From positions 1-63,589 of IMG/VR virus record IMGVR_UViG_3300026094_000847: DNA of 63,589 nucleotides. One strand, given 5' to 3'. Made by a program: the position numbers and the translations under genes. This DNA is from a virus. Within the stretch, counting starts at the first letter, position 1. Each line of letters opens with the position of its first letter. The notes under the pieces were generated by a model, which saw only the letters and a program-made list of their open reading frames with translations, had not been told where the DNA came from and did no database searches. This document shows, in pieces, positions 14,724 through 28,098 of this stretch.

Positions 14724-14751
14724 TTGACACGTGTGCACATGTGTGTATAAT
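14724..14751 (+). promoter_or_regulatory. Strong sigma70 promoter giving a leaderless start
   Basis: TTGACA, 16-nt spacer, TATAAT. The expected transcription start falls on or next to the ATG at 14758. Confidence 0.8.
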
Positions 14752-14757
14752 AGTGTT

Positions 14758-15006
14758 ATGACGATTCCTTATGAGAGATTCAGAGCGGTCGACAACACGA
14801 GAGAGTGGTTGTTTCTAAATTTGAGCAATCAGCGGTTGCCCAAATATCTACGCGATGAGATAAGTTCACTGCTGCGGCACTATCCTTCTCGCATGGAACT
14901 GGCTGCTATTGCAGCTGACTCACCGGCGTGGTTGGAAGCAGAACCGGACGCTTTCGTAGAATGGGTAAATGAGCGTGGGTCAGGGGTTGACACAGAGTCA
15001 GAGTGA
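14758..15006 (+). CDS. BPSL0761-family-like small protein
   Basis: An 82-residue protein starting MTIPYERFRAVDNTREWL, with LPKYLRDEISSLLRHYPSRMELA. This pattern (TxPYERxRA, then LRHYPS) resembles the BPSL0761 family of short bacterial and phage proteins of unknown role. The ATG lies 6 nt after the -10 box, so there is no room for a ribosome site; the in-frame ATG at 14731 lies upstream of the predicted transcript. Its last codons contain the -35 box of the tRNA promoter. Confidence 0.75.
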   Translation: MTIPYERFRAVDNTREWLFLNLSNQRLPKYLRDEISSLLRHYPSRMELAAIAADSPAWLEAEPDAFVEWVNERGSGVDTESE

Positions 15007-15015
15007 TCGTACACT
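14987..15015 (+). promoter_or_regulatory. Array promoter for the tRNA cluster
   Basis: TTGACA, 17-nt spacer, TACACT. The -35 lies inside the end of the preceding gene. Confidence 0.75.
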
Positions 15016-15057
15016 GTATGCACAGTAAACAAAGAGGAGCGCACACACAAGGTTTTT

Positions 15058-15134
15058 GGGACCATAGCTCAATTGGTTAGAGCGCACCACTCATAATGGT
15101 AAGGTTCTAGGTTCAAGTCCTAGTGGTCCCACCA
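15058..15134 (+). tRNA. tRNA-Met (CAT), probably elongator
   Basis: Full cloverleaf with a 7-bp acceptor GGGACCA/TGGTCCC, anticodon loop CTCATAA and encoded CCA. The anticodon arm resembles bacterial elongator Met tRNA, so Met is preferred over lysidine-modified Ile2. The first anticodon-stem pair is a C-A mismatch. Confidence 0.9.
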
Positions 15135-15138
15135 AGTT

Positions 15139-15214
15139 CTCCCGGTAGCATAATGGATAATGCAACAGACTTCTAATCTGTAGACTGTAGGTTCGAGTCC
15201 TACCCGGGAGGCCA
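15139..15214 (+). tRNA. tRNA-Arg (TCT)
   Basis: Acceptor CTCCCGG/CCGGGAG, anticodon stem ACAGA/TCTGT with loop CTTCTAA, encoded CCA. It reads AGA/AGG codons, which are common in the AT-richer phage genes. Confidence 0.92.
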
Positions 15215-15218
15215 CCAT

Positions 15219-15305
15219 GCCCGTGTGATGGAATTGGTAGACATACTGGACTTAAAATCCAGAGACCGAGAGGTCGTGGCGGTTCGAGTCCGCCCACGGG
15301 TACCA
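15219..15305 (+). tRNA. tRNA-Leu (TAA)
   Basis: Class II tRNA with a long variable arm. Anticodon stem CTGGA/TCCAG with loop CTTAAAA, acceptor GCCCGTG/CACGGGT (terminal G-T pair), encoded CCA. Confidence 0.92.
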
Positions 15306-15388
15306 CACCGTCAAACCACCGCAGGGACTCCTGAACGACGCTTGGACAAAAAAGTTTTAGGGTTCAGCTTTTGTCCTAAAAATAATGC

Positions 15389-15417
15389 TTGCACATTCCA
15401 GTGTGCGAGGCTATACT
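15389..15417 (+). promoter_or_regulatory. Array promoter
   Basis: TTGCAC, 17-nt spacer, TATACT, upstream of the 67-residue gene. Confidence 0.65.
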
Positions 15418-15449
15418 GTGTTAACATTAACACAGAGAGGGCAAGCTTA

Positions 15450-15653
15450 GTGTTAACCAGCAAGCAAATAGCACGTAACGTTTTTGTTACATACTGTAGC
15501 ACAACCAACACGCTGTTCACGCACACAGCCAAAACAAAACCCAAAAACGTCAGCATGCACACTGCGGAATTTGCCATTAAAAATGCTGCCGCACAGCAAG
15601 TAAAAGAATTTTTAAAAATGCCTGCGCTGTACACACTGCGCAAAAAAGCGTAA
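15450..15653 (+). CDS. Small basic protein, unknown function
   Basis: A 67-residue protein from a GTG start 33 nt after a -10 box, with AGAGAGGG upstream. It is lysine-rich with an amphipathic C-terminal half. An apparent longer frame runs back through tRNA-Leu and is rejected. Not recognised. Confidence 0.5.
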   Translation: MLTSKQIARNVFVTYCSTTNTLFTHTAKTKPKNVSMHTAEFAIKNAAAQQVKEFLKMPALYTLRKKA

Positions 15654-15661
15654 AAAAACGG

Positions 15662-15690
15662 TTGACAACTTGTGCGTGTGCTGTTATAGT
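15662..15690 (+). promoter_or_regulatory. Array promoter
   Basis: TTGACA, 17-nt spacer, TATAGT. It drives the 60-residue gene and probably the ATPase behind it. Confidence 0.8.
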
Positions 15691-15723
15691 ATACGCATAC
15701 TAACACAAAACGGAGCGAACACA

Positions 15724-15906
15724 ATGACAGTAGCACAACTCGTAGCACAGCTACAAGCACTTCCTCAAGACCTTGACGTAACAGCGTTCTCGCATGCACA
15801 AGCAAGTGAGCTTGAACTGTATAGCGCAGAACTGTTTGAGTCACTGGGTGAACCTGAGGATGCGGACCACATTCCAGAATCAGTAACACTACACTTCGAC
15901 GTATAA
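15724..15906 (+). CDS. Small conserved protein, unknown function
   Basis: A 60-residue acidic protein starting MTVAQLVAQLQALPQDLDV, a pattern seen in many short phage proteins. ACGGAGCG, the ribosome site shared through the region, precedes the ATG. It ends 9 nt before the AAA ATPase gene and is likely in the same transcript. Confidence 0.7.
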   Translation: MTVAQLVAQLQALPQDLDVTAFSHAQASELELYSAELFESLGEPEDADHIPESVTLHFDV

Positions 15907-15915
15907 GGAGCAAGT

Positions 15916-16707
15916 ATGCCAGCCAAGAAAACAGAAACTGATGCTGAAATCGTAGAGCGTCTGCGCGAGCGATTTGAAATTCTCAATCTCATGACAGCCG
16001 CTGTGAAGTCAGGCGAAGTACGAGCTATGATTGTTACTGGACCACCGGGCGTGGGCAAGTCGCACGGCGTACAGGAAACTCTCGCCAAAGACGACATGTT
16101 TGCTGCACTGGGCAATCGCGCTCCCAAGTACGAGTTTGTTAAAGGTGCTATGAGTGCAGTAGGACTCTACGCCAAACTGTACGAGTATTCAGCTCGAGAC
16201 GAAGTACTGGTGTTTGACGACTGTGACTCAGTGCTGATGGACGACTTATCGCTTAATATCCTAAAAGCCGCGCTGGATTCAAGCAAGAAGCGAATGATCC
16301 ATTGGAACACGGATTCGCGCAGTCTGCGAAGTGAAGGCATTCCGCATTCGTTTGAGTACCAAGGTGGTGCTATCTTTATTACGAACTTGAAGTTTGAAAA
16401 CGTCAAGTCAAAGAAGCTGAAAGATCACCTAGAAGCACTTGAGAGTCGCTGTCATCACATTGATCTGGGCATGGACACGGATCGTGAAAAAGTACTGCGC
16501 ATTCGCCAGATCGTAGAAGATGGCATGCTGGACGCATATGAACTCAGCCGAGACGTCAAGCGTGACATCGTAGAGTATGTGGTAGAGAACCGTGAGCGAC
16601 TGCGTGAGCTCAGTCTGCGAAGTGTGTTGAAGATTGCGGATCTCGCACGTGCCTATCCAGATCGCTGGCGTAAGATGAGTGAAGTCACTGTGATGCGCAG
16701 GCACTAG
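15916..16707 (+). CDS. AAA+ family ATPase
   Basis: A 263-residue protein. Walker A is TGPPGVGKSHG (around 42-52), Walker B VLVFDDCDSVL (around 94-104), followed by a sensor-like FITNL. GGAG precedes the ATG. The rest is helical with many arginines, consistent with a small AAA+ lid. It is the largest protein of the early array. A role in host DNA or phage DNA metabolism is plausible; nothing in the sequence names a target. Confidence 0.85.
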   Translation: MPAKKTETDAEIVERLRERFEILNLMTAAVKSGEVRAMIVTGPPGVGKSHGVQETLAKDDMFAALGNRAPKYEFVKGAMSAVGLYAKLYEYSARDEVLVFDDCDSVLMDDLSLNILKAALDSSKKRMIHWNTDSRSLRSEGIPHSFEYQGGAIFITNLKFENVKSKKLKDHLEALESRCHHIDLGMDTDREKVLRIRQIVEDGMLDAYELSRDVKRDIVEYVVENRERLRELSLRSVLKIADLARAYPDRWRKMSEVTVMRRH

Positions 16708-16724
16708 GCCCCGCTGCTGGGGTC
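16707..16724 (+). repeat. GGCCCCGCTGCTGGGGTC repeat, copy 3
   Basis: One mismatch to the copies at 14594 and 14696. It begins at the last base of the ATPase stop codon, and the next promoter follows at once. Confidence 0.7.
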
Positions 16725-16725
16725 G

Positions 16726-16754
16726 TTGACAACAGCGACCCTAGATCATATACT
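16726..16754 (+). promoter_or_regulatory. Array promoter
   Basis: TTGACA, 17-nt spacer, TATACT; GATC lies just before the -10. Confidence 0.82.
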
Positions 16755-16786
16755 GTAACAGTGTTGAAGAAAGCGAGGTTTAGGGC

Positions 16787-16957
16787 GTGAAATTTATTCT
16801 AGGGTTGATCACAGGTGGCGTGATTGTGGCATACAATCCTTCTATCGTTGACAACATTCAGGTTTGGATCAACACAGCCGCTGACCGTGTGGTGGAGCAC
16901 ACAGAACCCACAGCAGTTGAACAGTTTAAAGGCAGGATCGATGATCTATCAAGATGA
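16787..16957 (+). CDS. Small membrane-anchored protein
   Basis: A 56-residue protein from GTG with GAGG upstream. It opens with a hydrophobic stretch (MKFILGLITGGVIVAY) that could be a signal anchor, then a hydrophilic tail. It overlaps the next gene by 17 nt. Not recognised. Confidence 0.55.
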   Translation: MKFILGLITGGVIVAYNPSIVDNIQVWINTAADRVVEHTEPTAVEQFKGRIDDLSR

Positions 16958-17117
16958 CGTAGAATTCAACCTCGCATGTCTGTTGGCAGACGGTGACGAG
17001 GACTTCACAGACGAAGAAACTGCTGACATGGGGCTGTACCTCATGCAGTGTGTGGCCATCAAGGCGGCGGGTGACGAACATCTCGTACACTGGGAAGCCA
17101 GCGAAGCAGTACACTAG
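16941..17117 (+). CDS. Small acidic protein, unknown function
   Basis: A 58-residue acidic protein beginning MIYQDDVEFNLACLLADGDEDF (first 20 residues shown by range 1-20), starting inside the end of the previous gene. The longer frame back to 16824 conflicts with that gene and is not used. Confidence 0.5.
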   Translation: MIYQDDVEFNLACLLADGDEDFTDEETADMGLYLMQCVAIKAAGDEHLVHWEASEAVH

Positions 17118-17125
17118 GAGGCGCA

Positions 17126-17353
17126 GTGAGCAAGCATTCAGGAGGCTTTAGCCTTAGATACAACAAGCAAACAGGCCAGTGGGATGTCATAGAGCACACT
17201 GAGCCGAGCAGGGCACCGGACAGCACAGGATCGGCTTGGATCTACGGTGACAGTGTTGCCATGGGAATCATTGATCGTGCAATAGAGCACATGACTGAGT
17301 TTCCCACAGTGGAAAAAATCTTATCACAGGTGGTTGACAAGCCCACTCGTTGA
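17126..17353 (+). CDS. Small protein, unknown function
   Basis: A 75-residue protein from GTG after AGGAGG. It holds the -35 box of the next promoter in its final codons. Not recognised. Confidence 0.6.
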   Translation: MSKHSGGFSLRYNKQTGQWDVIEHTEPSRAPDSTGSAWIYGDSVAMGIIDRAIEHMTEFPTVEKILSQVVDKPTR

Positions 17354-17362
17354 AGGTATACT
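17334..17362 (+). promoter_or_regulatory. Array promoter
   Basis: TTGACA, 17-nt spacer, TATACT, followed by an ACTGT/ACAGT inverted pair. The -35 is inside the upstream gene. Confidence 0.82.
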
Positions 17363-17400
17363 GTATATAACAGTTAGGGCAAAGGCATTAGGAGCGAACT

Positions 17401-17742
17401 ATGCAAGCACAGATCGAACGTCTCATCGAAGACATCAAATCAGACTATCGCACACACATGAGTCGTGTGGACAGCAAGAGTCACACGTCCAAGACCATGA
17501 TTCAAGAGTTTGAAGAGGGTGTTAGCGTGTCCCAAGGACGCAAGTACATCAAAATCCTTCACAAGTTGGGCACACAGACCATGGTGTGGGGATTCGTAGT
17601 TAACACAGACACGGACAAAAAGTTTCGCCGAGGTGACATCCTAAAGCCAGCAGGCTTTAATGCGCCAGCTCGCAACCAGCCACGTGGCAACATCCTAGAC
17701 GGCGACTACAGTATTCGTTGGACAGGGCCACTGTATCTATGA
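17401..17742 (+). CDS. Small protein, unknown function
   Basis: A 113-residue protein with a charged helical N-terminus and a beta-rich end (RRGDILKPAGFNAPARN, then GNILDGDYSIRW) that resembles short conserved phage proteins. GGAGCGA ribosome site. Overlaps the next start (ATGA). Confidence 0.65.
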   Translation: MQAQIERLIEDIKSDYRTHMSRVDSKSHTSKTMIQEFEEGVSVSQGRKYIKILHKLGTQTMVWGFVVNTDTDKKFRRGDILKPAGFNAPARNQPRGNILDGDYSIRWTGPLYL

Positions 17743-18101
17743 AGTGTTTGGTAGAGGTCACTGGTTGGGACACCGAGACACAGCCCAACCACACCTATCT
17801 CGTGTCGGGCGATAAAATGATTGCCTACAGGCCTCATCACACAGGCCCAGTAGAGTGGTTTAAACACCCCATGCGACTGAATCGTGCTCGTCGACGGTTT
17901 GAAGAACGAGCAGTGTGTTCTACAGAGTGGAGCATTGAGTCAGCTGAAGACCCCGCAGTGGTGACTGTGCAGGGCAGCCGTGGAAACACCTACGAAGTCA
18001 ACACCCAAGAGAAGACCTGTAGTTGCACGGGCTATCGATTCCACGGGCGCTGTCGGCACTTAGATCAAGTGATAGCACAACAGGGGTTGACAGCTGCATG
18101 A
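17739..18101 (+). CDS. SWIM-type zinc-finger protein
   Basis: A 120-residue protein. The C-terminal CSCTGYRFHGRCRH fits the SWIM pattern CxC...CxH. The N-terminal part is basic. SWIM domains bind DNA or proteins; a free-standing one this short is uncommon. It is coupled to the upstream gene by an ATGA overlap. Confidence 0.7.
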   Translation: MKCLVEVTGWDTETQPNHTYLVSGDKMIAYRPHHTGPVEWFKHPMRLNRARRRFEERAVCSTEWSIESAEDPAVVTVQGSRGNTYEVNTQEKTCSCTGYRFHGRCRHLDQVIAQQGLTAA

Positions 18102-18115
18102 CTAGGTCATACACT
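18087..18115 (+). promoter_or_regulatory. Array promoter
   Basis: TTGACA, 17-nt spacer, TACACT. The -35 lies within the last codons of the SWIM gene. Confidence 0.78.
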
Positions 18116-18145
18116 GTAACTACACTGAACAATTAGGAGCGAGCA

Positions 18146-18346
18146 ATGGACACTGTAACACTGTACCAGACCACATATGATGATCTCACAGAGAGCATCT
18201 CAGCCAAGACCTACGACGTCAACTACCTCAAAGGCTGCATTCATGGCCTTGCACTGTTTGCAGACAGCGATCCTCTGCATGTAGCACGAGAGATCAAACG
18301 GATGTCAGAAAAGATCCAAGCAGGGGTTGACGTCGCTGAACTTTGA
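18146..18346 (+). CDS. Small protein, unknown function
   Basis: A 66-residue protein with GGAGCGA before the ATG. Its C-terminal codons GVDVAEL contain the next -35 box. Not recognised. Confidence 0.6.
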   Translation: MDTVTLYQTTYDDLTESISAKTYDVNYLKGCIHGLALFADSDPLHVAREIKRMSEKIQAGVDVAEL

Positions 18347-18355
18347 TCTTAAACT
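18327..18355 (+). promoter_or_regulatory. Array promoter
   Basis: TTGACG, 17-nt spacer, TAAACT; weaker match than its neighbours. Confidence 0.6.
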
Positions 18356-18385
18356 GTACTTACACTGAACAACTAGGAGCGAACC

Positions 18386-18745
18386 ATGTCTAATTCAGTA
18401 GAAACACTCGTCGTCCAGGCGGCACACGACAAAGCGATCAGAGCGGCACGCGATGCGGCACAAGAGTTTGCCGATCGTCATTTCGAAGGCAACGACGGCG
18501 GTCCCTGTGGATTTGCGTGGGTAGATGCATACGGCATTCGTTCAAACTCAAAGATGGGCAAGGCTCTGCAGGCTGTGGGATTCCGCAAGAGTTATTCAGG
18601 CGGACTTCAACAGTGGAACGGACGCGATGGTTGGTATTTTGGCCAGAGCGTGGATGCAAGTGAAGCAGGTGCTCGTGCCTACGCTGAAGTATTCCGCGAA
18701 GAGCTTGAGTTGGACCGCGTGTTTGCAGGATCACGCCTAGACTGA
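18386..18745 (+). CDS. Conserved phage protein, unknown function
   Basis: A 119-residue protein. CGFAWVDAYGIRSNSKMGKAL, GFRKSYSGGLQQW and the ending FAGSRLD match a pattern I recognise from small proteins of many phages (first segment given in part: residues about 41-60). GGAGCGA ribosome site. It is followed by a rho-independent terminator. Confidence 0.7.
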   Translation: MSNSVETLVVQAAHDKAIRAARDAAQEFADRHFEGNDGGPCGFAWVDAYGIRSNSKMGKALQAVGFRKSYSGGLQQWNGRDGWYFGQSVDASEAGARAYAEVFREELELDRVFAGSRLD

Positions 18746-18752
18746 ACACGAG

Positions 18753-18808
18753 CGGGGTCTGTGTCCCCGACTGGGTATGGGCACCGCCCGAAATGGGCCC
18801 ATTTTTTT
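18753..18808 (+). terminator. Tandem hairpins with rho-independent terminator
   Basis: First hairpin CGGGG/CCCCG (18753-18769). Second ATGGGC (18777-18782) pairs with GCCCAT (18797-18802), followed by a T tract. Confidence 0.75.
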
Positions 18809-18818
18809 ATTGCAGGGG

Positions 18819-18849
18819 TTGACACAGTCGTCAATGATGTTACTATAAG
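18819..18849 (+). promoter_or_regulatory. Array promoter
   Basis: TTGACA with TACTAT (16-nt spacer) or TATAAG (19-nt spacer) as -10. Confidence 0.6.
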
Positions 18850-18877
18850 AGAGTAGGGCAAACACGGAGCGAACACT

Positions 18878-19276
18878 ATGACCACACTTCTACAGCACAT
18901 CGAGTCCATCAATGCTCGTGCAGATATCTTGATGCAGCAGGAGCCAGGCACTGTAGTGTTCAAACTCACAGACGACCTCAGCCATTGGCACGACCAGGGC
19001 ATCTACACCGTGGAAGACTTCCGTCGCAACGAGTTGATCAATGGGATTTCGGATGCTTCAAAGGACCTTTACGGTTGCCGCTTGCGCCTCAACTGGGATG
19101 AGATGTCTATTGAGCAGTTGCAGTCTACCTACGACAACATCTGCCGTCAACTCAATGAGCAGTTTGAGGAAGAGCAGGCCACAGCGGCTTGGGAAGCAGA
19201 GTTAGCACGAGGTCTGCCCGCGGACGTTGAGCCTCTGCCCTACGAAGAATACGCTTATCTAGAGGAGTCGATCTAG
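18878..19276 (+). CDS. Conserved phage protein, unknown function
   Basis: A 132-residue helical, acidic protein. ISDASKDLYGCRLRL followed by MSIEQLQ fits a motif (D..K..YG.R.....M...EL) widespread in short phage proteins of unknown role. ACGGAGCG ribosome site. Overlaps the next start. Confidence 0.7.
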   Translation: MTTLLQHIESINARADILMQQEPGTVVFKLTDDLSHWHDQGIYTVEDFRRNELINGISDASKDLYGCRLRLNWDEMSIEQLQSTYDNICRQLNEQFEEEQATAAWEAELARGLPADVEPLPYEEYAYLEESI

Positions 19277-19491
19277 TGGGATATGCCGCAATGCCAGCAG
19301 TTACTCCACAGTGGGAACAGGGCTCGCGAGAAAGCGAAGGACTGGAAGGTCCGTTCACATATCCCAATGGCAGAGTTCTGTTCTACGATCGCTGGGAGGG
19401 CGAATACTGGGATCCCTACACCGACCTGTATGTAGATCGCAGCGAGGTCGCACAGCTGCAGGCAGAGATCGTAGACATGATTAGGGGTTGA
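19276..19491 (+). CDS. Small protein, unknown function
   Basis: A 71-residue protein from a GTG that overlaps the upstream stop (TAGTG). Aromatic-rich centre (YDRWEGEYWDPYTDLYVD). Its TGA stop is part of the next -35 box. Confidence 0.55.
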   Translation: MGYAAMPAVTPQWEQGSRESEGLEGPFTYPNGRVLFYDRWEGEYWDPYTDLYVDRSEVAQLQAEIVDMIRG

Positions 19492-19516
19492 CACACAGTG
19501 CGAAAGATCATACACT
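19488..19516 (+). promoter_or_regulatory. Array promoter overlapping a stop codon
   Basis: TTGACA, 17-nt spacer, TACACT; the TGA of the -35 ends the upstream gene. Confidence 0.8.
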
Positions 19517-19538
19517 GTGAGCAAGTTGGAGGCAAATT

Positions 19539-19727
19539 GTGAGATCATATCGTTTTACATTTGATGTACACTGTGTGGGGTCGGGCTCAGCAGATCTTGC
19601 ACAGGTCGAAAGCATGATTGATCTCGCCATGCAAGAGTTGATCTACGATGACACGTTCGTAGCTGCTCTAGACGAGAACGAGGCTGTAACCATCCAGGTA
19701 AATAGGGTTGACACAGCCGATGAATGA
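19539..19727 (+). CDS. Small protein, unknown function
   Basis: A 62-residue protein from GTG after TTGGAGG. Its last codons (RVDTADE) carry the -35 box of the small-RNA promoter. Not recognised. Confidence 0.6.
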   Translation: MRSYRFTFDVHCVGSGSADLAQVESMIDLAMQELIYDDTFVAALDENEAVTIQVNRVDTADE

Positions 19728-19736
19728 CTGTACAAT
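19708..19736 (+). promoter_or_regulatory. Promoter of the candidate small RNA
   Basis: TTGACA, 17-nt spacer, TACAAT. Unlike the other array promoters it lacks the GGGCAAA/GGAGCGA leader downstream. Confidence 0.75.
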
Positions 19737-19742
19737 TTTCGT

Positions 19743-19878
19743 GAACTTTGATAGTTGTGACAAATTACAAGTTCCCACCGAATCAGCCGCCCGGCTGATA
19801 GCCATGGAATCCGATTCGCTCCCGGAGCCCATGGCACCCGGAGCACTCCCCCGCCCTCGGGAGTGCTCCACCCTTTTT
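19743..19878 (+). ncRNA. Candidate structured small RNA of about 136 nt
   Basis: A promoter-to-terminator unit with no plausible gene. Hairpin 1: ATCAGCC (19782-19788)/GGCTGAT (19793-19799). Then GCCATGG (19801-19807) pairs with CCATGGC (19829-19835), enclosing two small hairpins (AAT/ATT at 19808-19816 and GCTC/GAGC at 19818-19828), so a three-way junction. Last is an 11-bp terminator stem. The first 38 nt are unpaired and could serve as a seed. Any target is unknown. Confidence 0.6.
19840..19878 (+). terminator. Rho-independent terminator of the small RNA
   Basis: GGAGCACTCCC (19840-19850) and GGGAGTGCTCC (19859-19869) form a perfect 11-bp stem, followed by ACCC and five T. Confidence 0.85.
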
Positions 19879-19895
19879 CCAGCAGAGTCGATTCG

Positions 19896-20300
19896 ATGAA
19901 CTACTTGATCGACTTTGCTATTTTTGTTCTAGGTTGTGCGGTAGGCAGTGCTGTTACCACACGCATTGCGGGCCGGGCACTGGGCAACCTACTGAACGAA
20001 TTCAATATCGGCGATCGTGAAATCAAACAGAAAGCACGAGAGTTAGGAGTTGACGTCAGTGAGTTCTATCCAGAAGAAACAGAAGAAGACGCTGTGCGAG
20101 AAGTCACTGTGGAAAAGATCAATGACAACTACCTTGCCTATCATTATGAAACAGACGAGTTTATTGCACAGGCCAGCACACCCCAACAGTTGTTTGAACG
20201 GTTGGTAGAATACTTTCCCGCCAACACTCGAGTCAACATTGACATTGATCGTGGCGGACACTACTTCGAAGATCTAGTAGACAAGGAAGAACCAAAATAA
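19896..20300 (+). CDS. Small membrane-anchored acidic protein
   Basis: A 134-residue protein. Residues 1-25 are hydrophobic (MNYLIDFAIFVLGCAVGSAV), a likely N-terminal anchor, followed by an acidic cytoplasmic domain. No promoter or good ribosome site lies between the upstream terminator and this ATG, so it depends on read-through or an unseen promoter. Not recognised. Confidence 0.6.
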   Translation: MNYLIDFAIFVLGCAVGSAVTTRIAGRALGNLLNEFNIGDREIKQKARELGVDVSEFYPEETEEDAVREVTVEKINDNYLAYHYETDEFIAQASTPQQLFERLVEYFPANTRVNIDIDRGGHYFEDLVDKEEPK

Positions 20301-20311: not shown

Positions 20312-20416
20312 ATGCCATTGACCGTGTTGCTTGCGTTGAGCATTGTGGTGTTTGCGATCGGTTGCGTCTCTGAGTGGTGTGATCACAGATCAATGGTTGA
20401 CAAGGGACTGGACTGA
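20312..20416 (+). CDS. Very small hydrophobic protein, possibly lipoprotein
   Basis: A 34-residue protein. Residues 2-17 are hydrophobic, ending in FAIGC, a loose lipobox. The next -35 box lies in its final codons (MVDKGLD). No strong ribosome site. Confidence 0.4.
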   Translation: MPLTVLLALSIVVFAIGCVSEWCDHRSMVDKGLD

Positions 20417-20425
20417 GCGTACACT
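20397..20425 (+). promoter_or_regulatory. Array promoter
   Basis: TTGACA, 17-nt spacer, TACACT, followed by an ACTGT/ACAGT pair. Confidence 0.8.
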
Positions 20426-20457: not shown

Positions 20458-20646
20458 ATGAAAGGCACTATTCGAATTGCACTGGGCTTTGTGATGCTGA
20501 TCTCAGCGGTTGGCGTGATGGAAGACTGCGGCGGTGCTTGCTACGAACCCCTCGGCCTGTTTGAAATTGCACTGGCAGGTGTGCTTGTGATGGGCGGAGC
20601 ATTCTTTGGCCTTTGGGGTGCGACTGCTGCCAATGCGGACGCTTGA
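20458..20646 (+). CDS. Small membrane protein, two predicted segments
   Basis: A 62-residue protein with hydrophobic stretches at about 5-20 and 36-56, separated by a short loop containing two cysteines (EDCGGACYE). ACGGAGCG ribosome site. The stop codon lies in the next -35 box. Confidence 0.65.
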   Translation: MKGTIRIALGFVMLISAVGVMEDCGGACYEPLGLFEIALAGVLVMGGAFFGLWGATAANADA

Positions 20647-20671
20647 CACTCTGCCTTAGAGATCATACACT
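20643..20671 (+). promoter_or_regulatory. Array promoter overlapping a stop codon
   Basis: TTGACA, 17-nt spacer, TACACT; GATC precedes the -10. Confidence 0.82.
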
Positions 20672-21693: not shown

Positions 21694-21722
21694 TTGACAG
21701 GGCCACTCCGAAATCATATACT
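21694..21722 (+). promoter_or_regulatory. Array promoter
   Basis: TTGACA preceded by a run of G, 17-nt spacer, TATACT. Confidence 0.82.
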
Positions 21723-21756
21723 AGTATCAAGAGTTAGGGCAAAGAGGGCGAACAAC

Positions 21757-22068: not shown

Positions 22069-22069
22069 C

Positions 22070-22267
22070 ATGAGAACCATTGAAGAGATCGAACAGGCGA
22101 TTCGAGAAGCAGAAGAAGCGCAAGCAGAGACAGAGTTCAGTTCTGTGGGCTGGGACTTCTTGAACGCAGAGATCATCGGCTTGCACGCAGAACTCAAACA
22201 AGCGACTCTGCACCGAGATCGATTACAGTTGAGCGGCATGCTAGGGGTTGACACCCACGGCCGTTGA
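22070..22267 (+). CDS. Small coiled-coil protein
   Basis: A 65-residue protein, almost wholly charged helix (EEIEQAIREAEEAQAETE). It begins 1 nt after the membrane-protein stop. The final codons (GVDTHGR) carry the next -35. Confidence 0.55.
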   Translation: MRTIEEIEQAIREAEEAQAETEFSSVGWDFLNAEIIGLHAELKQATLHRDRLQLSGMLGVDTHGR

Positions 22268-22276
22268 CCATACACA
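22248..22276 (+). promoter_or_regulatory. Array promoter
   Basis: TTGACA, 17-nt spacer, TACACA; -10 is degenerate. Confidence 0.62.
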
Positions 22277-22306: not shown

Positions 22307-22507
22307 GTGACAGATTTACTTGACAATTACGAACAGCTTCCCCTCCAAGTACAGGATCTACTTGACAGGTTCGACCAAGAATCAGAATCAGGTGATTCAT
22401 ATGCTGCTGCGGCGCGGCTGTCACAGGCGCTTGCTTGTTTGGGCTACTCTGTAGACTACGGGCCAGATGGTGAACTATGCGATTTGGTTGACACGAACTC
22501 AAACTGA
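22307..22507 (+). CDS. Small acidic protein, unknown function
   Basis: A 66-residue acidic protein from a GTG start. The final codons (LVDTNSN) carry the next -35. Not recognised. Confidence 0.55.
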   Translation: MTDLLDNYEQLPLQVQDLLDRFDQESESGDSYAAAARLSQALACLGYSVDYGPDGELCDLVDTNSN

Positions 22508-22516
22508 TCATATACT
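22488..22516 (+). promoter_or_regulatory. Array promoter
   Basis: TTGACA, 17-nt spacer, TATACT with GATC and an ACTGT/ACAGT pair. Confidence 0.84.
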
Positions 22517-22548: not shown

Positions 22549-22851
22549 ATGCCATACTACACCCACACTAAAGATCCAATCGGAATCTTCACAGAGAAAG
22601 ACACCGGCAATTATTTCGAATACAGCCTCAACCCAGACGACACTGTTCTTGCTCCGCCAGCACACGGCGGACGCAACATGGAATACCCACATATCGTTTG
22701 GGTAGGTGGTGAAGGCGTATGCGGTATGAGTGGCTATCGTTATGCCAAGGTTATGAAGAACGTGGTGCACATCATCACAGACGAAGATGACCGTGGTTGG
22801 GCTGTGGTTGAGAAGTGGCACATCAAGAACCACTCGGAGTATGTGGTTTAG
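22549..22851 (+). CDS. Small protein, unknown function
   Basis: A 100-residue protein rich in tyrosine and histidine, probably beta-rich. TTGGAGCGA ribosome site. Not recognised. Confidence 0.6.
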   Translation: MPYYTHTKDPIGIFTEKDTGNYFEYSLNPDDTVLAPPAHGGRNMEYPHIVWVGGEGVCGMSGYRYAKVMKNVVHIITDEDDRGWAVVEKWHIKNHSEYVV

Positions 22852-22853
22852 GG

Positions 22854-22881
22854 TCGACACCCGTCAAAATGATCATACACT
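22854..22881 (+). promoter_or_regulatory. Array promoter
   Basis: TCGACA, 16-nt spacer, TACACT with GATC. Confidence 0.65.
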
Positions 22882-22910
22882 ATACATATAGTGAAGTTAA
22901 GGAGCGAACA

Positions 22911-23069
22911 ATGACAGACTACAGAGATTTTGCAATTGAGTTGGTTGAAGAGATGGGCTACTCCGCAGAGGATATGCTCACAGCCTGCTTGAAGTATATG
23001 AGCATGGACGATGTTGAAGACATGTTACACTGTAACGAATATCCAACACCTTGCGAGGAGGATGCATAA
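22911..23069 (+). CDS. Small acidic protein, unknown function
   Basis: A 52-residue acidic helical protein (MTDYRDFAIELVEEMGYS) after AAGGAGCGA. The longer upstream frame lies across the promoter and is rejected. Its stop overlaps the next ATG. Confidence 0.6.
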   Translation: MTDYRDFAIELVEEMGYSAEDMLTACLKYMSMDDVEDMLHCNEYPTPCEEDA

Positions 23070-23230
23070 TGTTCAATCAATACTTTGTTTATTATGATGG
23101 CCGGTTCGCTGGCACTGTGATGGCTCTGAATGAGCGTAGTGCAAAGGACAAAGGTCGTCAGATGGTTGGTGTGAGTGCTTCAGCTTACACTGGAAAGTCA
23201 AGTCATTTAGTAGAGGTTGTAAGACGATAA
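23069..23230 (+). CDS. Small basic protein, unknown function
   Basis: A 53-residue protein beginning MFNQYFVYYDGRFAGTVMAL. It starts on the upstream stop (TAATG), and its own TAA overlaps the next ATG. Three genes are thus coupled. GAGGAGG precedes the ATG. Confidence 0.6.
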   Translation: MFNQYFVYYDGRFAGTVMALNERSAKDKGRQMVGVSASAYTGKSSHLVEVVRR

Positions 23231-23790
23231 TGCCAAACTGGTGCTATAACAATGTGGACATCACAGCCACAACAGAAGAAGGTAAGGCTCTGTTAGAACG
23301 AGTGAGCCGAGCAGAAGCCGCAGATGGTTTCTTTGGTATGTTCCTTCCACTGCCAGAGATCTTGCGAGACACTGTATCTCCCACGCCAGACAACCTCGAC
23401 AGTGTGCAGCGACAAGTTATGATCGCACAGACTGGACATACCAATTGGTATGACTGGCAGGTTGCCAACTGGGGCACTAAATGGGACATTGATCCCGTCA
23501 GTGAAGACTTTGACGGCGTGACTCTGAGCTTAAGCTTTGACTCAGCCTGGGCACCTCCCGTCCAGTTCTATGAGTATCTCAGAGAGCAGGGCTTTGAGGT
23601 CAGCGCGAACTACTATGAACCTGGCATGGCCTATGCAGGCGAGTGGGTCAACGGTGAAGACTTCATGATCGATGACGTGTATGCTCTCGCTCGTTTAGAA
23701 ACCAGTGAACTCAGCGAGCAGGAGTATAACATCCTCGACCAGTTCGGTGTGTACGACGATCTCGCAATGATGGAAGACAGCGTTGGTTGA
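23230..23790 (+). CDS. Api92-like ferredoxin-fold domain protein (DUF1281-like)
   Basis: A 186-residue protein. MPNWCYNNVDI at the start, WYDWQVANWGTKWD in the centre and FDSAWAPPVQFYEYL after it match the Api92-like ferredoxin-fold family found in phages and plasmids. Function of the family is not established. Coupled to the upstream gene. The stop codon is inside the next -35 box. Confidence 0.8.
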   Translation: MPNWCYNNVDITATTEEGKALLERVSRAEAADGFFGMFLPLPEILRDTVSPTPDNLDSVQRQVMIAQTGHTNWYDWQVANWGTKWDIDPVSEDFDGVTLSLSFDSAWAPPVQFYEYLREQGFEVSANYYEPGMAYAGEWVNGEDFMIDDVYALARLETSELSEQEYNILDQFGVYDDLAMMEDSVG

Positions 23791-23815
23791 CATGCTGTCT
23801 CAAAGATCATATACT
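23787..23815 (+). promoter_or_regulatory. Array promoter overlapping a stop codon
   Basis: TTGACA, 17-nt spacer, TATACT with GATC. Confidence 0.83.
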
Positions 23816-23848
23816 GTAGACACACTGTTAGGAAAAGAGGGCAAGACT

Positions 23849-24235
23849 ATGTTTGACACTTTCCACGAAGTAGCAAGTTGGCGTGACGACTTCTACCATG
23901 TCGTAGTAGACTGGTGGTATGAGGACGTGCCCATCCGCGACATGTTCGACGACACTGTTTCGGATGTTGAGGAAATGGAGCGACGCTGCGACGCGGGCAT
24001 TGACACTCACTTCATCACTCGAGTTCGCGTGTTCTATCGGGGACACCTCATGGCAGACGAGAACTTGGGATCCTGCTATGCCGCAGACTGTTCGCCTGAA
24101 GAGGAGATCCTTGAGAACCGTTTGGGCGGATACTTGGACGACATGCTGGAGCAGACTCGTGAGGCGGCAGATCGCGAACTCGTGCGCCTCAACCGCGAGA
24201 TTGCTCGTGACGCTGCTCTGGTTGACACGGTGTAG
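23849..24235 (+). CDS. Acidic protein, unknown function
   Basis: A 128-residue acidic protein. The N-terminal WRDDFYHVVVDWWYEDVP is tryptophan-rich and the C-terminal 40 residues form a charged helix. Start chosen after the array leader AGAGGGCAAGAC. Not recognised. Confidence 0.6.
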   Translation: MFDTFHEVASWRDDFYHVVVDWWYEDVPIRDMFDDTVSDVEEMERRCDAGIDTHFITRVRVFYRGHLMADENLGSCYAADCSPEEEILENRLGGYLDDMLEQTREAADRELVRLNREIARDAALVDTV

Positions 24236-24250
24236 TTGAGATCATATACT
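24222..24250 (+). promoter_or_regulatory. Array promoter
   Basis: TTGACA inside the upstream gene, 17-nt spacer, TATACT with GATC. Confidence 0.83.
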
Positions 24251-24282
24251 GTAGACACTTAGGGCAAACCAGGAGCGACACA

Positions 24283-24507
24283 ATGAGCATGAACTATCCT
24301 AACATGAGCTATTGCGCTGTTGAGAACACTGCGGCCGCAATGGATCAGATTCTTGCGCTGATCGACGAAGCAGGCGGCATTGGCGAGTGGATCGCAAACC
24401 TAGACGATCACGAGCGCGGCAAGGTAAAGTCTCTGCTGTTGGCCTGCTCTGAGATTGCAGAAGCGGAAGAAGACATTCGCTACGAACTTGACAGCACTGT
24501 GGCTTGA
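24283..24507 (+). CDS. Small acidic helical protein
   Basis: A 74-residue protein after AGGAGCGA. Acidic and helical. The next -35 falls within its codons for LDST. Not recognised. Confidence 0.6.
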   Translation: MSMNYPNMSYCAVENTAAAMDQILALIDEAGGIGEWIANLDDHERGKVKSLLLACSEIAEAEEDIRYELDSTVA

Positions 24508-24516
24508 TCATATACT
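24488..24516 (+). promoter_or_regulatory. Array promoter
   Basis: TTGACA, 17-nt spacer, TATACT with GATC. Confidence 0.83.
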
Positions 24517-24548
24517 GTACATGAACACTAAGGCAAGAGGGCAACGCA

Positions 24549-24842
24549 ATGGACGCACGTTTTGTAGACACGAAGAAACTGGCTCGTGAGATCGAAGAGA
24601 AGATCCTACGCCGGTTCGAGTCAGACTGGGCGCGGGCTTGTGAAGACGGCAGTCACGCCGCTGGCTTGAAGGCACTGTATATCTCCGACGCTGGCGACAT
24701 GCTGGAGGTCTGCCGCTATATCAGTCAGGGCCACACTCGTGCAGCACGGGCTGCACTGCTGTCAATGGACACTGCTCCCCGTGAGGACATGTTTGGTCTT
24801 ATCGAAGAGACTGCGGGCTCGGACTTCGTAGACAGTTGGTAA
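24549..24842 (+). CDS. Early paralogue A, unknown function
   Basis: A 97-residue helical protein, clearly homologous along its length to the gene at 25704-26000: both open with an R(F/Y)(V/I)(D/N)TK segment, carry ISDAG and a C(R)(Y/W)I core, and a conserved MDT.PRE box. A tandem duplicate separated by two genes. Function unknown. Confidence 0.7.
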   Translation: MDARFVDTKKLAREIEEKILRRFESDWARACEDGSHAAGLKALYISDAGDMLEVCRYISQGHTRAARAALLSMDTAPREDMFGLIEETAGSDFVDSW

Positions 24843-24846
24843 GGGG

Positions 24847-24875
24847 TTGACAAGACCCCTAGAACATCATATACT
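24847..24875 (+). promoter_or_regulatory. Array promoter
   Basis: TTGACA, 17-nt spacer, TATACT. The -35 lies inside a GGGG...CCCC palindrome. Confidence 0.82.
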
Positions 24876-24907
24876 GTAGACACTTAGGGCAAACCAGGAG
24901 CGACAAG

Positions 24908-25315
24908 ATGGCAACTCGCGCAACGATTGGACAGGTCACTGACGAAGGCTACATCCGTTACATCTACTCACACTGGGACGGCGGACTCAAAGGCGTAGGC
25001 GCTGTTCTCCTAGAGAACTACAACACTGACGATCAGATTGCCGAACTCATCGAGCAGGGTGATGCCAGCCAAATGGCACCCACTATTGAGGACTCAGTGT
25101 TCTATCACAGAGATCATGGCGAACTGCTCAACACAGTGTGCGCCGTTGAGACCAGCACTGTGAAGGACTTGAAGAACGACTATAACTATGTGTGGACAGG
25201 GTCAGAGTGGATCGTAGGCTATGAAGGCAGTTGGTATCGACTGTCATATCTGCTCAACGCTCGCATTCCAGGAATCCAAGCGGACGACTATGTGTTTGGC
25301 AGGCTAACTGCTTGA
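24908..25315 (+). CDS. Conserved phage protein, unknown function
   Basis: A 135-residue protein. MATRATIGQVTDEGYIRYIY then SHWDGGLKGVGAVLLENY is a pattern I recognise from many phages, where the opening reads (S/A)TRA.I and HWDGY. It has no established role. AGGAGCGA ribosome site; the stop is inside the next -35. Confidence 0.75.
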   Translation: MATRATIGQVTDEGYIRYIYSHWDGGLKGVGAVLLENYNTDDQIAELIEQGDASQMAPTIEDSVFYHRDHGELLNTVCAVETSTVKDLKNDYNYVWTGSEWIVGYEGSWYRLSYLLNARIPGIQADDYVFGRLTA

Positions 25316-25340
25316 CAGGAACCCGCCAAGGTCATATACT
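25312..25340 (+). promoter_or_regulatory. Array promoter overlapping a stop codon
   Basis: TTGACA, 17-nt spacer, TATACT. Confidence 0.83.
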
Positions 25341-25371
25341 GTATAAACACTGAACGAACAGGAGCGACACA

Positions 25372-25644
25372 ATGAATTCAGTACAGACAGCAGTCTCAGC
25401 TATCAACTCAATGAACACGAAGGAACTAGAGCAGGTTGTTGAAGCGATCAAACTGCGCCGCACCTACCTGTCGCGCGAAACTACTCGCGCACTGGCAACA
25501 GGAGACTCTGTTGAGTTTGAAGCACGTGGTCGCACCGTGACGGGCACGGTAATCAAAATCAATCGCAAGACTGTGATTGTCAGCGAGTCGGGCTACGGCA
25601 ACTGGAAGGTTCCTGCGAGCATGCTTCGCACGGAAACTGCTTGA
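25372..25644 (+). CDS. Small KOW/SH3-like conserved phage protein
   Basis: A 90-residue protein. A helical N-terminus is followed by GDSVEFEARGRTVTGTVIKI and NWKVPASML, a small beta-barrel pattern common in phages and resembling nucleic-acid-binding KOW domains. AGGAGCGA ribosome site; stop inside next -35. Confidence 0.7.
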   Translation: MNSVQTAVSAINSMNTKELEQVVEAIKLRRTYLSRETTRALATGDSVEFEARGRTVTGTVIKINRKTVIVSESGYGNWKVPASMLRTETA

Positions 25645-25669
25645 CACACTCTTTCAAAGATCATACACT
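25641..25669 (+). promoter_or_regulatory. Array promoter overlapping a stop codon
   Basis: TTGACA, 17-nt spacer, TACACT followed by an ACTGT/ACAGT pair 2 nt apart. Confidence 0.83.
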
Positions 25670-25703
25670 GTACACAGTTAGGGCAAAAACAGAGAGCGAC
25701 ACA

Positions 25704-26000
25704 ATGAACTCACGTTACATTAATACCAAAGCACTTGCCAAAGAACTTGAAGAGAAGATCGTGCGCGAGTTTCGCACGGACTTCGCAGAAGAGCGCATGG
25801 GCGACGACGACATTGGCTACACTGCGATGTTGATCTCCGACGCGGGCCGCATGATTGAGATCTGCCGCTGGATTGGTTGGGGCGAGTTTGATCGTGCACG
25901 TGAACTGCTGCGTGACATGGACACACTGCCGCGCGAGAACATGATGTACTACATCGAATCTGTCGCAGGCAGCAGCATGCTGGACACGATCTTTGCATAG
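25704..26000 (+). CDS. Early paralogue B, unknown function
   Basis: A 98-residue homologue of the protein at 24549-24842 with the same motif order and length. Start set at MNSRYI after GAGAGCGAC; the upstream extension is promoter. The two copies differ enough to suggest an old duplication. Confidence 0.7.
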   Translation: MNSRYINTKALAKELEEKIVREFRTDFAEERMGDDDIGYTAMLISDAGRMIEICRWIGWGEFDRARELLRDMDTLPRENMMYYIESVAGSSMLDTIFA

Positions 26001-26009
26001 GAGTCACTC

Positions 26010-26108
26010 ATGACAGGCACACTGGAAGAACGTTATGAGATCTACTGTGAGCAGGCTAGAAGTTTGGGCTGGCGTGTAAAGACATTTGACGAGTGGTTAA
26101 ACTTATAG
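26010..26108 (+). CDS. Very small protein, unknown function
   Basis: A 32-residue protein (YEIYCEQARSLGWRVKTFDE) of a type frequent in phages. AGGAG lies 8 nt before the ATG. One nt separates its stop from the next -35. Confidence 0.55.
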   Translation: MTGTLEERYEIYCEQARSLGWRVKTFDEWLNL

Positions 26109-26137
26109 TTGACACATCCAACAGTAGATCGTATACT
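26109..26137 (+). promoter_or_regulatory. Array promoter
   Basis: TTGACA, 17-nt spacer, TATACT with GATC. Confidence 0.83.
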
Positions 26138-26169
26138 GTAGACACTTAGGGCAAACCAGGAGCGATAGA

Positions 26170-26538
26170 ATGGCATATGTAAGTCAAGAATTCAAACGTG
26201 AAGTTGCACCCCAGATCCGTGCAGTGCTAAAGAAGTATGGCATGCGTGGCACAGTATCAGTGCGCAATCACTCCACACTGGCAGTGACGCTGACTGAAGG
26301 AGCAATTGACTTCCCCCGGCCTTACATGCAGGTCAACCACTACTGGATCGACGAGCACTATGAGGGCACCGCACGTGACTTCCTCACTGAGCTGTTAGCG
26401 GCAATGCGTGGACCCAACTACTATGATCACAGTGACATCCAGACTGACTACTTCTGTGTCAGCCACTACACTGACATTGACGTAGGGCGGTACAACCGGC
26501 CGTACCGTTGCACAGCACGAGAGGCACTTGCACAGTGA
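26170..26538 (+). CDS. Conserved phage/plasmid-type protein, unknown function
   Basis: A 122-residue protein. MAYVSQEFKREVAPQIRAVL, KKYGMRGTVSVRNHSTL, YWIDEHYEG and DYFCVSHYTDIDVGRY match a pattern recurrent in phage early regions. Role not established. AGGAGCGA ribosome site. Overlaps the next start. Confidence 0.72.
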   Translation: MAYVSQEFKREVAPQIRAVLKKYGMRGTVSVRNHSTLAVTLTEGAIDFPRPYMQVNHYWIDEHYEGTARDFLTELLAAMRGPNYYDHSDIQTDYFCVSHYTDIDVGRYNRPYRCTAREALAQ

Positions 26539-26747
26539 GCATTACCATACACGATCCTGAACAGGTACAGCCTGTTACTCACTATCTACAGGTCATAGAA
26601 GATCTCAAGCGCACGGGCGCGGAGCATGCTGAACTGCGTCCCGGTGGTGACAATGTAGTATGGGTCAGCCGAGGTTCCAGCACGTGTCCCATCAACATCT
26701 ACTACATATTCCGCAACGGACAGATCAGTAGCGTACAGGTTGACTAG
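26535..26747 (+). CDS. Small protein, unknown function
   Basis: A 70-residue beta-rich protein from GTG overlapping the upstream stop (GTGA). Its last codons (VQVD) form the next -35. Not recognised. Confidence 0.58.
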   Translation: MSITIHDPEQVQPVTHYLQVIEDLKRTGAEHAELRPGGDNVVWVSRGSSTCPINIYYIFRNGQISSVQVD

Positions 26748-26768
26748 CGCACCTCAAGACCATATACT
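26740..26768 (+). promoter_or_regulatory. Array promoter
   Basis: TTGACT, 17-nt spacer, TATACT. Confidence 0.72.
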
Positions 26769-26800
26769 TTATAAAAGTTAGGGCAAAGAGGGCAAACACC

Positions 26801-27328
26801 ATGACTGCATTGGATATCAACACATACACACCAGACGGTTTTGAACGTGTGTGCACGGTAACACAAGAAACAGCACACAACAACAGTTGGTTCTACACAG
26901 ACATCGACCAAGACCTTATGTTTCGAGATCACCGCAGCTGGATCTACTTTATTGTGGTTAACGGTGAAATTTGGAAGGTAGGCGAAACAGGCAATCCACT
27001 TGGCATTCGATACAAGCGCGGAACCAGCAGTCAACCAAAGCCAGGCACGGAAGGCAGACTGGGTCGTTACAGAACTGGTGACTACGGCGGCGCAGACAGA
27101 TACGACACTGACTGGACAATTCGCGAGCGCCTGCACACGGAACTCACAGAAGGTGCACGGGTTGAGTTTTGGGCCAAGGCTTGTCCGATAGCAGAAACCC
27201 AAATAACCGTTGCAGGCAACACTGAGCAGGTAGGTAGTGCAATACACAAAGAACTTGAAATGGCGTATCTGGATTACATATTTGAGCAGACAGGCACCCT
27301 ACCGCGTCTCAATAAACTGCGCAAATAA
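26801..27328 (+). CDS. GIY-YIG-nuclease-like protein
   Basis: A 175-residue protein. SWIYFIVVNGEIWKVGETGN followed by RYKRG recalls the GIY-YIG fold start, and a helix with E (IHKELEMAYLDYIFEQ) and final LPRLNK agree with phage proteins of that type. The canonical GIY and YIG triplets are altered (YFI, KVGET). It may be a divergent nuclease or an inactive relative. Confidence 0.6.
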   Translation: MTALDINTYTPDGFERVCTVTQETAHNNSWFYTDIDQDLMFRDHRSWIYFIVVNGEIWKVGETGNPLGIRYKRGTSSQPKPGTEGRLGRYRTGDYGGADRYDTDWTIRERLHTELTEGARVEFWAKACPIAETQITVAGNTEQVGSAIHKELEMAYLDYIFEQTGTLPRLNKLRK

Positions 27329-27331
27329 AGG

Positions 27332-27360
27332 TTGACAAACCACAGCCAAGATCGTACACT
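27332..27360 (+). promoter_or_regulatory. Array promoter
   Basis: TTGACA, 17-nt spacer, TACACT with GATC and an ACTGT/ACAGT pair. Confidence 0.83.
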
Positions 27361-27390
27361 GTAAACAGTTAGACAACAGGAGCGAACAAC

Positions 27391-27654
27391 ATGAAACACT
27401 CAAACACAGCACAGGTAGGTGATGTGATCCGCGCACTGGACTTTCAGGGTCAGCCCTACTATATCCAAGGACGTGTCCTGAAAAAAGGTGCAGTACACAC
27501 ACGCTCAGGTGTTTACCTCTACGATGGATATCACATCAGTATCGAACAGGACACACTGGGTGAGGGATCACGCGTGGGCGACATAGGTTATGTGCCATTC
27601 GAAACAGCGTTAGACTATGAAGATCGTGTACAGCGTGTGGAGAGCACAGCATGA
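27391..27654 (+). CDS. Small conserved phage protein, unknown function
   Basis: An 87-residue beta-rich protein (GDVIRALDFQGQPYYIQGRV) after AGGAGCGA. The pattern of a small barrel with a variable tail recurs in other phages. Overlaps the lipoprotein start (ATGA). Confidence 0.65.
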   Translation: MKHSNTAQVGDVIRALDFQGQPYYIQGRVLKKGAVHTRSGVYLYDGYHISIEQDTLGEGSRVGDIGYVPFETALDYEDRVQRVESTA

Positions 27655-27821
27655 GACTGCTGGCGCTTGTGCTAGCGTGCGCTGTGCTAGCAGGCTGTGC
27701 AGCACGCGAGCCACTACCACACGAACTGTTTGAACAGATTCCCAATTGGGATGGTGAAGCACACCAAGTGTGCTGTGGTCACTTGGAGACTTGTGAACCA
27801 CACCAGACTCCAAGGTGTTGA
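27651..27821 (+). CDS. Small lipoprotein
   Basis: A 56-residue protein. MRLLALVLACAVLAGCAARE is a lipoprotein signal peptide with lipobox LAGC, so C16 would be lipidated. The mature part has a CC pair and two further cysteines. It could act at the outer or inner membrane in superinfection exclusion or as an outer spanin-like part; nothing settles this. The stop lies in a TTGACA that has no matching -10. Confidence 0.75.
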   Translation: MRLLALVLACAVLAGCAAREPLPHELFEQIPNWDGEAHQVCCGHLETCEPHQTPRC

Positions 27822-28069
27822 CAGTGGTGGTCATGGTGGAGGGTAGTGTGGGGGGTGGGCCGGTATAGTGCGTACAGTGTAGTAGCTGTGCGCTAGCCTT
27901 AATATCTCACACTTTCACACTTTCACATTTTCGCACATTTCACACTTTCTCACACACACATTACACAGTTTTGAAACCCATGGTCTAGAATCACCAGGGG
28001 TGGGATAAACTTTATACATATGTAAATTTTTGCGCGGCCAAATTTTTTACCTATAGGACCCATTTGGGC
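27822..28069. other. Non-coding interval with repeat array
   Basis: No gene. G-rich at the left (GGGTAGTGTGGGGGGTGGG), then the inverted AAAGTGTG array, then AT-rich DNA with a TTTTTTACC tract, up to the next promoter. Confidence 0.55.
27908..27953 (-). repeat. AAAGTGTG-type repeat array, right copy
   Basis: Five closely spaced units read CACACTTT on the plus strand at about 9-11-nt steps, that is AAAGTGTG on the minus strand. Opposite in orientation to the array at 14185-14275. Confidence 0.6.
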
Positions 28070-28098
28070 TAGACACAGCTCACACACAGTGTTATAAT
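28070..28098 (+). promoter_or_regulatory. Sigma70 promoter
   Basis: TAGACA, 17-nt spacer, TATAAT. It drives the 135-residue gene. Confidence 0.78.

Follow-up and report, generated by a model that had tools for sequence, protein, structure and literature searches.

A promoter array in an uncultured T4-superfamily virus encodes a predicted RNA whose loops complement the shared leaders of its small genes

Introduction

Why would a phage set 27 promoters in front of small genes that share their leader sequences, and what could act on so many similar leaders at once? The question is raised by the linear IMG/VR virus record IMGVR_UViG_3300026094_000847 (63,589 bases, analysed at its full length and called the window here), in which an array of 27 sigma70-type promoters on the + strand (14724..28098) serves about 41 small genes and three tRNAs. 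A first-pass annotation had described these promoters from the sequence. What it did not contain is that the leader shared by many of the genes is the complement of loops in an RNA encoded by the array itself. We think it fairly probable that the early genes carry a common tag at the ribosome-binding site (RBS) and that an RNA which the phage expresses alongside them pairs with this tag in trans, most likely repressing translation; this suggests that a single phage-encoded RNA can silence the whole tagged gene set.

Results

Promoter 19708 is followed by no gene start for about 150 nt; in its place lies a 138-nt structured RNA that is predicted from the sequence to have its own promoter just upstream, a stable fold and a perfect terminator. 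Its parts are the following.

19743..19880, + strand: anti-leader RNA, 138 nt, ending in an intrinsic terminator (minimum free energy -60.2, z -8.9, 0 of 200 shuffles equally stable)
19801..19835, + strand: hairpin hp2, whose 9-nt loop AUUCGCUCC (19814-19822) is the reverse complement of GGAGCGAAU and complements GGAGCGA
19840..19869, + strand: terminator hairpin hp3, 11 bp, whose loop CCGCCCUC (19851-19858) complements GAGGGC

The two complemented words are those of the array leaders, where the leader types previously proposed are indeed present, GGAGCGA in 13 genes and GAGGGC in four, with variants besides.

15712..15718, and from 17391, 18136, 18376, 18866, 20447, 22538, 22901, 24272, 24897, 25361, 26159 and 27379, + strand: RBS tag GGAGCGA
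21744..21749, and from 23837, 24537 and 26788, + strand: RBS tag GAGGGC

GGAGCGA occurs 14 times in the 63.6-kb window, always within the array, with one copy inside a gene (23977). The + strand of the array contains a single copy of each complement, TCGCTCC and GCCCTC, and both lie inside loops of the 19743-19880 RNA. Predicted pairing with these loops reaches -9 kcal/mol or better in 22 of 41 array genes and in none of the 46 other genes (p=2e-9), and within the array it follows position, being found in 21 of the 24 genes that come first after a promoter against 1 of 17 internal genes (p=1.4e-7).

The RNA resembles the C-rich anti-Shine-Dalgarno small RNAs (sRNAs) of bacteria and is new to Rfam, to named phages and to the literature as searched. 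Only tRNAs pass the Rfam cut-off in the window and nothing does in five other loci with the element; the CcsR1 model (RF02791) scores 20 bits on the RNA against a cut-off of 65.3. At blastn sensitivity, nothing significantly similar to it turned up among 50,697 records of named phages, and literature searches found no description of such an RNA.

Do loop and leader change together in other genomes? Relatives were gathered through the largest array gene, which yielded 80 related viral loci.

15916..16707, + strand: NrdC.10-like AAA ATPase, the largest array gene; anti-leader hairpins lie immediately 3' of its counterpart in relatives

Some 80 or more viral contigs carry the element, a hairpin followed by a terminator. 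The hairpin CCG-AUUCGCUCC-CGG, set within a variable outer stem before the terminator, recurs in relatives; this core is found in at least 120 viral stretches, some of them by chance, and an outer stem with a T-run accompanies 61 of 127 viral matches against 0 of 120 chance 15-mers in bacterial genomes, which served as the null. The outer stems vary yet remain paired (6.49 for own against 3.84 for swapped; 0 of 5000). At element loci, GGAGCGA starts number 375 on the strand of the element and 37 on the opposite one, and at 73 full-element loci GGAGCGA outnumbers GGAGCAA by 322 to 28.

The RBS word differs among genomes, and the loops follow it. Over nine genomes, 18 loops match the RBS word of their own genome, against 2.8 for random RBS-like words (0 of 20000) and 7.8 when these dialects are shuffled among genomes (89 of 20000). 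Within the 750 nt after the NrdC.10-like gene, the complement of the genome's own RBS word lies in a loop in 6 of 6 genomes that have a dominant word, namely GGAGCG in relatives L009, L117 and L125, GAGGGC in L011 and L097, and GGAGCA in L017; for this comparison the word set was fixed as GGAG or GAGG plus two bases, and the folding thresholds were picked after a stricter perfect-stem search, which missed bulged hairpins, had failed. L097 carries four tandem GCCCTC hairpins, the last within the terminator, and on folding, at least three of these four copies fall within a loop; the loops of L011 likewise contain GCCCTC. L017 carries ATTTGCTCC and TTGCTCC, and its natural pair is ATTTGCTCC/GGAGCAAA. 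Another candidate, CCGATTTGCTCCCGG, was set aside, as 52 of its 53 matches in viral contigs are chance matches lacking the outer stem and the real one is the L017 genome. Separately, variant hairpins with the loop AUUCGCUCU stand beside copies of AUUCGCUCC at L158:8874, L159:1470 and L238:8896, and these could represent a second tag.

Several observations weigh against trans pairing by such an RNA. When the loops are shuffled with their composition kept, they still match 7.4 array genes on average (maximum 27 in 300 trials). The CUCC of the loop pairs with any GGAG, so that the match is partly generic and the specific signal lies in the CG, CA or GC part. Cofolding, which cannot form loop-loop kissing, gave a weak whole-molecule interaction with one target (-1.8). 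Only three loop/RBS dialects are seen, among related phages, which means few independent changes. L012 and L020, whose RBS dialects are weak, have no match after the NrdC.10-like gene, although L020 has the element. Finally, hairpins lie in the 3' untranslated region (UTR) of a gene in many relatives, where they could act in cis.

The generic part of the match also fits a plainer account, in which this is an ordinary T4-type early region. The leader would be a good Shine-Dalgarno sequence that the copying of cassettes has spread, and the hairpins would be terminators, their loops matching the leader by coincidence. T4 has an equivalent array, and leader blocks have been copied between cassettes in the window, those at 24222, 24847 and 26109 being identical from the -10 box through the RBS. 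This account leaves unexplained why loops match the dialect beyond GGAG (18 against 2.8, and 6 of 6 after the NrdC.10-like gene), why the outer stems covary while the loop inside them stays constant, and why both leader complements lie in one RNA of the window; the covariation disfavours it, and we regard it as unlikely, if far from negligible.

The placement of the hairpins raises a second alternative, in which a loop in the 3' UTR binds the RBS of the same message and thereby controls how that message is translated or how stable it is. In L117, L125 and L126 the hairpin directly follows a stop codon, as such cis action would have it. The RNA of the window, in contrast, is preceded by a promoter of its own and carries no tagged gene, and there is a single copy of it for at least 17 tagged leaders; we consider cis action very unlikely as the general explanation.

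Pairing in trans is suggested by the covariation, and the production of the RNA and repression by it are likewise predicted; of the possible directions repression is the likeliest, as the pairing would cover the Shine-Dalgarno sequence. In the mechanism that we propose, head-to-tail cassettes, each made up of a promoter, a tagged leader and between one and four small genes, would be transcribed early by unmodified host sigma70 polymerase, which would read through from each into the next. Tagged leaders would be translated first as the RNA from promoter 19708 accumulates. Its hairpin loops would expose the complements of both tags, bind tagged RBSs in trans and block the entry of ribosomes. Early protein synthesis would then be a pulse, the same promoters yielding the messages and, with a delay, their inhibitor.

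The opposite direction, in which tagged messages are activated by the RNA or protected by it, as they might be if it shielded GGAG from a RegB-like endoribonuclease, appears highly improbable. T4 RegB does cut GGAG in early RBSs (PMC3014915), and loop pairing would cover that site. Pairing at the RBS would block ribosomes too, however, and no RegB homologue was found, none having been sought.

How real and how uniform are the promoters on which this repression would depend? A relaxed scan returned exactly 27 distinct sites, all on the + strand, in agreement with the number first reported.

14724..14751, +, promoter 1: looser, 16-nt spacer; predicted +1 at the ATG of gene 14758, possibly a leaderless message
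14987..15015, +, promoter 2: 5' of the tRNAs; its TGATCG supplies the stop codon of the preceding gene
15390..15417, +, promoter 3: weak -35; T4-like dyad CTGTGTTA/TAACACAG
15662..15690, +, promoter 4: looser; 13-bp dyad around -10, like T4 PeSL (promoter plus stem-loop) cassettes
16726..16754, +, promoter 5: 12-bp hairpin over -35
17334..17362, +, promoter 6
18087..18115, +, promoter 7
18327..18355, +, promoter 8
18819..18847, +, promoter 9: looser -10
19488..19516, +, promoter 10
19708..19736, +, promoter 11: looser; precedes the structured RNA instead of a gene
20397..20425, +, promoter 12
20643..20671, +, promoter 13
21694..21722, +, promoter 14: looser
22248..22276, +, promoter 15
22488..22516, +, promoter 16
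22854..22881, +, promoter 17: 16-nt spacer; dialect of relative L009
23787..23815, +, promoter 18
24222..24250, +, promoter 19
24488..24516, +, promoter 20
24847..24875, +, promoter 21
25312..25340, +, promoter 22
25641..25669, +, promoter 23
26109..26137, +, promoter 24
26740..26768, +, promoter 25
27332..27360, +, promoter 26
28070..28098, +, promoter 27: looser; other class, TAGACA/TATAAT

The window contains 30 instances of the pattern TTGAC-N18-TAYACT with at most one mismatch where 2.5 are expected, a count reached in 0 of 100 shuffles. For the exact 30-mer pattern there are 16 forward matches, none in reverse and none with the reversed-pattern control. With a weight matrix built on 22 sites, leave-one-out scores run from 15 to 38; the best score outside the array is 16.8, and the maxima on ten Markov-random sequences range from 5.9 to 19.4. 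The description of the promoters as near-identical holds for one tight family of about 20 sites, with the consensus GG-TTGACA-N11-WGATCA-TAYACT-GTA, and fails for seven looser ones (14724, 15390, 15662, 18819, 19708, 21694 and 28070). The spacer is mostly 17 nt, as had been stated (22-23 of 27 promoters), and otherwise 16.

Each site holds 34 bits of information, unevenly spread: the first 11 nt of the spacer contribute 0.5 bit in total, WGATCA 5.6 bits and the GTA after the -10 box 3.4 bits. The motif has therefore been kept by selection on its separate parts, and not by recent copying alone. This distribution bears on a further reading, in which a phage transcription factor silences the array by binding the genome-specific spacer motifs (WGATCA in the window) as operators. 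About 13-18 bits per site would suffice, WGATCA and GTA are conserved beside a random N11, and every genome has a spacer motif of its own. Against this, no DNA-binding protein was recognised among the array products, and T4 early promoters likewise hold 33 bits, the extra conservation being ascribed to contact with the polymerase (PMC2988021). We judge operators to be quite unlikely here; they could coexist with an anti-leader RNA.

Other roles for the promoter sequence were considered and rejected. Dam control through the GATC at the -10 box would call for a strict methylation site, and GGTC, GACC, CATC and AATC are tolerated there. A dyad inside the spacer is enriched in L097 only, which does not support a general operator. 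Masking of the RBS by a spacer arm in read-through RNA had no effect in the window, in T4 or in relatives, and hairpins over the -35 box are weak across the window (p=0.007) and strong at single sites only.

Are the small proteins made independently, as the first-pass annotation held? The density of promoters does exceed what operons would need, with 27 for 41 genes. Independence itself is not borne out. Terminator-like sites in the array are at chance (12 against 12.5 expected), two of them, at 18786 and 19840, appearing real, and upstream genes end within the promoters that follow them: in 16 of the 25 promoters that have an upstream gene, the stop codon of that gene falls between -35 and -10. 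Two positions are favoured, with 5 stop codons at the TGA of TTGACA and 8, likewise TGA, at the W of WGATCA, and several upstream proteins end in promoter-encoded C-terminal tails such as VDTESE, VDKPTR and VDTADE. Given the predicted read-through and this fusion of genes with promoters, array transcripts should overlap, and separate transcription units are unlikely. As a side observation, the T of TGATCA matches a used stop codon in nearly all cases (14987-26747), a dual coding of promoter and C-terminal tail.

Arrays are also present in many of the 80 related loci, and their gene order is shuffled, with 9 of 16 adjacencies kept in L009, 2 of 10 in L097 and 1 of 10 in L117. The suggestion that the repeated promoters invite gene exchange gains support from this comparison, since neighbouring genes have been separated at 59 of the 74 junctions that contain a promoter and at 15 of the 29 that do not (p=0.007, the events being non-independent). 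The motif of spacer and discriminator differs genome by genome, and per-genome early promoter logos of T4-like phages have already been described (PMC1524935). That promoters are inherited along with their genes was rejected: orthologous spacers are no closer than unrelated ones (difference 0.007, p=0.33), and similarity is higher within a genome.

With T4 as a guide, the proposal that these are early genes is supported. The array is a hyperplastic early region of the T4 kind, its genes are probably early, and its largest gene is NrdC.10-like, the equivalent T4 region having 17 early promoters. We used the T4 nrdC-tRNA region (NC_000866; L148, T4 38000-80000) as a positive control. There, long perfect dyads flank the -10 box, with arms that vary among promoters and pair within each (5.88 for own against 4.13 for swapped, p=0.0002). 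The same comparison is positive in L097 and L009 and negative over the entire window (3.67 against 3.74, p=0.71), where such dyads occur only at 15390 and 15662.

The source virus is a member of the T4 superfamily, as placed by its core genes: the window holds T4-like replication and packaging genes for UvsX, a gp32-like single-stranded DNA-binding protein, a UvsW-like helicase, a gp41/gp61-like helicase and primase, the terminase large subunit and DNA ligase, along with NrdC.10. Named phages have no direct similarity to the array. MotA, which serves T4 middle promoters, had no match in the window or in four relatives, records that may be fragments, and the positive controls T4 and Acj9 were matched. 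The roughly 41 array genes encode proteins with a mean of 91 amino acids, and the three tRNAs lie downstream of promoter 2.

15058..15305, + strand: tRNA-Met, tRNA-Arg and tRNA-Leu

Other features of the window deserve mention. The paralogues at 24549-24842 and 25704-26000 (47% identity, a separate promoter each) point to cassette duplication. Three copies of GGCCCCGCTGCTGGGRTC lie towards the left end of the array (14595, 14697 and 16708), and the sequence may form a small hairpin. G+C is about 50% in the array region (12000-30000) and 33-45% elsewhere. Genes for a tryptophan halogenase (49747-51270), a Nol-like carbamoyltransferase (32705-34162), a nucleotide-sugar transferase (53363-53977) and a GXM-like domain (54684-55217) look like a modification or surface-sugar gene set carried by the phage.

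Discussion

Shut-off of T4 early genes proceeds partly by means that are still incompletely understood (PMC2988021, PMC3014915), and one RNA addressing an entire early regulon through a common leader tag would, if true, be a simple general answer. A broader form of the idea is that environmental T4-superfamily phages use a tag/anti-tag RNA code, in which every cassette carries the RBS tag of its genome, an RNA with matching loops regulates all tagged messages, and tag and loop change together to give each lineage a private code; on this generalisation we are evenly divided. Were it true, candidates for host takeover or anti-defence in uncultured phages could be marked by an RBS that matches the phage's own loop, and the private code might also decide which cassettes exchanged from foreign phages fall under control.

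The closest known design is that of T4 itself. Its early promoters and PeSL cassettes, which are said to have been described by Arbiol (2010) and Comeau (2014), share with the window a dense one-strand array of strong promoters before small genes, a hyperplastic region with NrdC.10, and a shuffled gene order with breaks at promoters. They differ in the -35 box (GTTTAC in T4, TTGACA here), in the -10 dyad, which is not window-wide, and in the upstream stop codons held by the window promoters.

In their target and presumed purpose, the T4 regulators RegB and RegA, the latter of which also controls early messages (PMC3014915), resemble the predicted RNA: they act on the RBS of early mRNAs, RegB at GGAG, as the RNA would, presumably for early shut-off. 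The agent is different, as T4 uses a nuclease or a repressor protein and the phage studied here would use an RNA with complementary loops. Among RNAs, the bacterial anti-Shine-Dalgarno sRNAs (mycobacterial B11/6C; CcsR1, RF02791) are likewise stable hairpin RNAs whose C-rich loops pair with many RBSs. The RNA of the window, in contrast, is phage-encoded, has a longer, tag-specific complementarity, and belongs to a family of elements whose loops change together with the tag. Finally, an archaeal virus early-gene motif (PMC11065993) and the promoter repeats of halovirus HF2 (PMC8707807) also place one promoter sequence before many small early genes; these are archaeal promoters, for which control by a protein (Aca8) has been proposed and no matching RNA is described, whereas the array studied here appears to encode an RNA that matches its own leaders.

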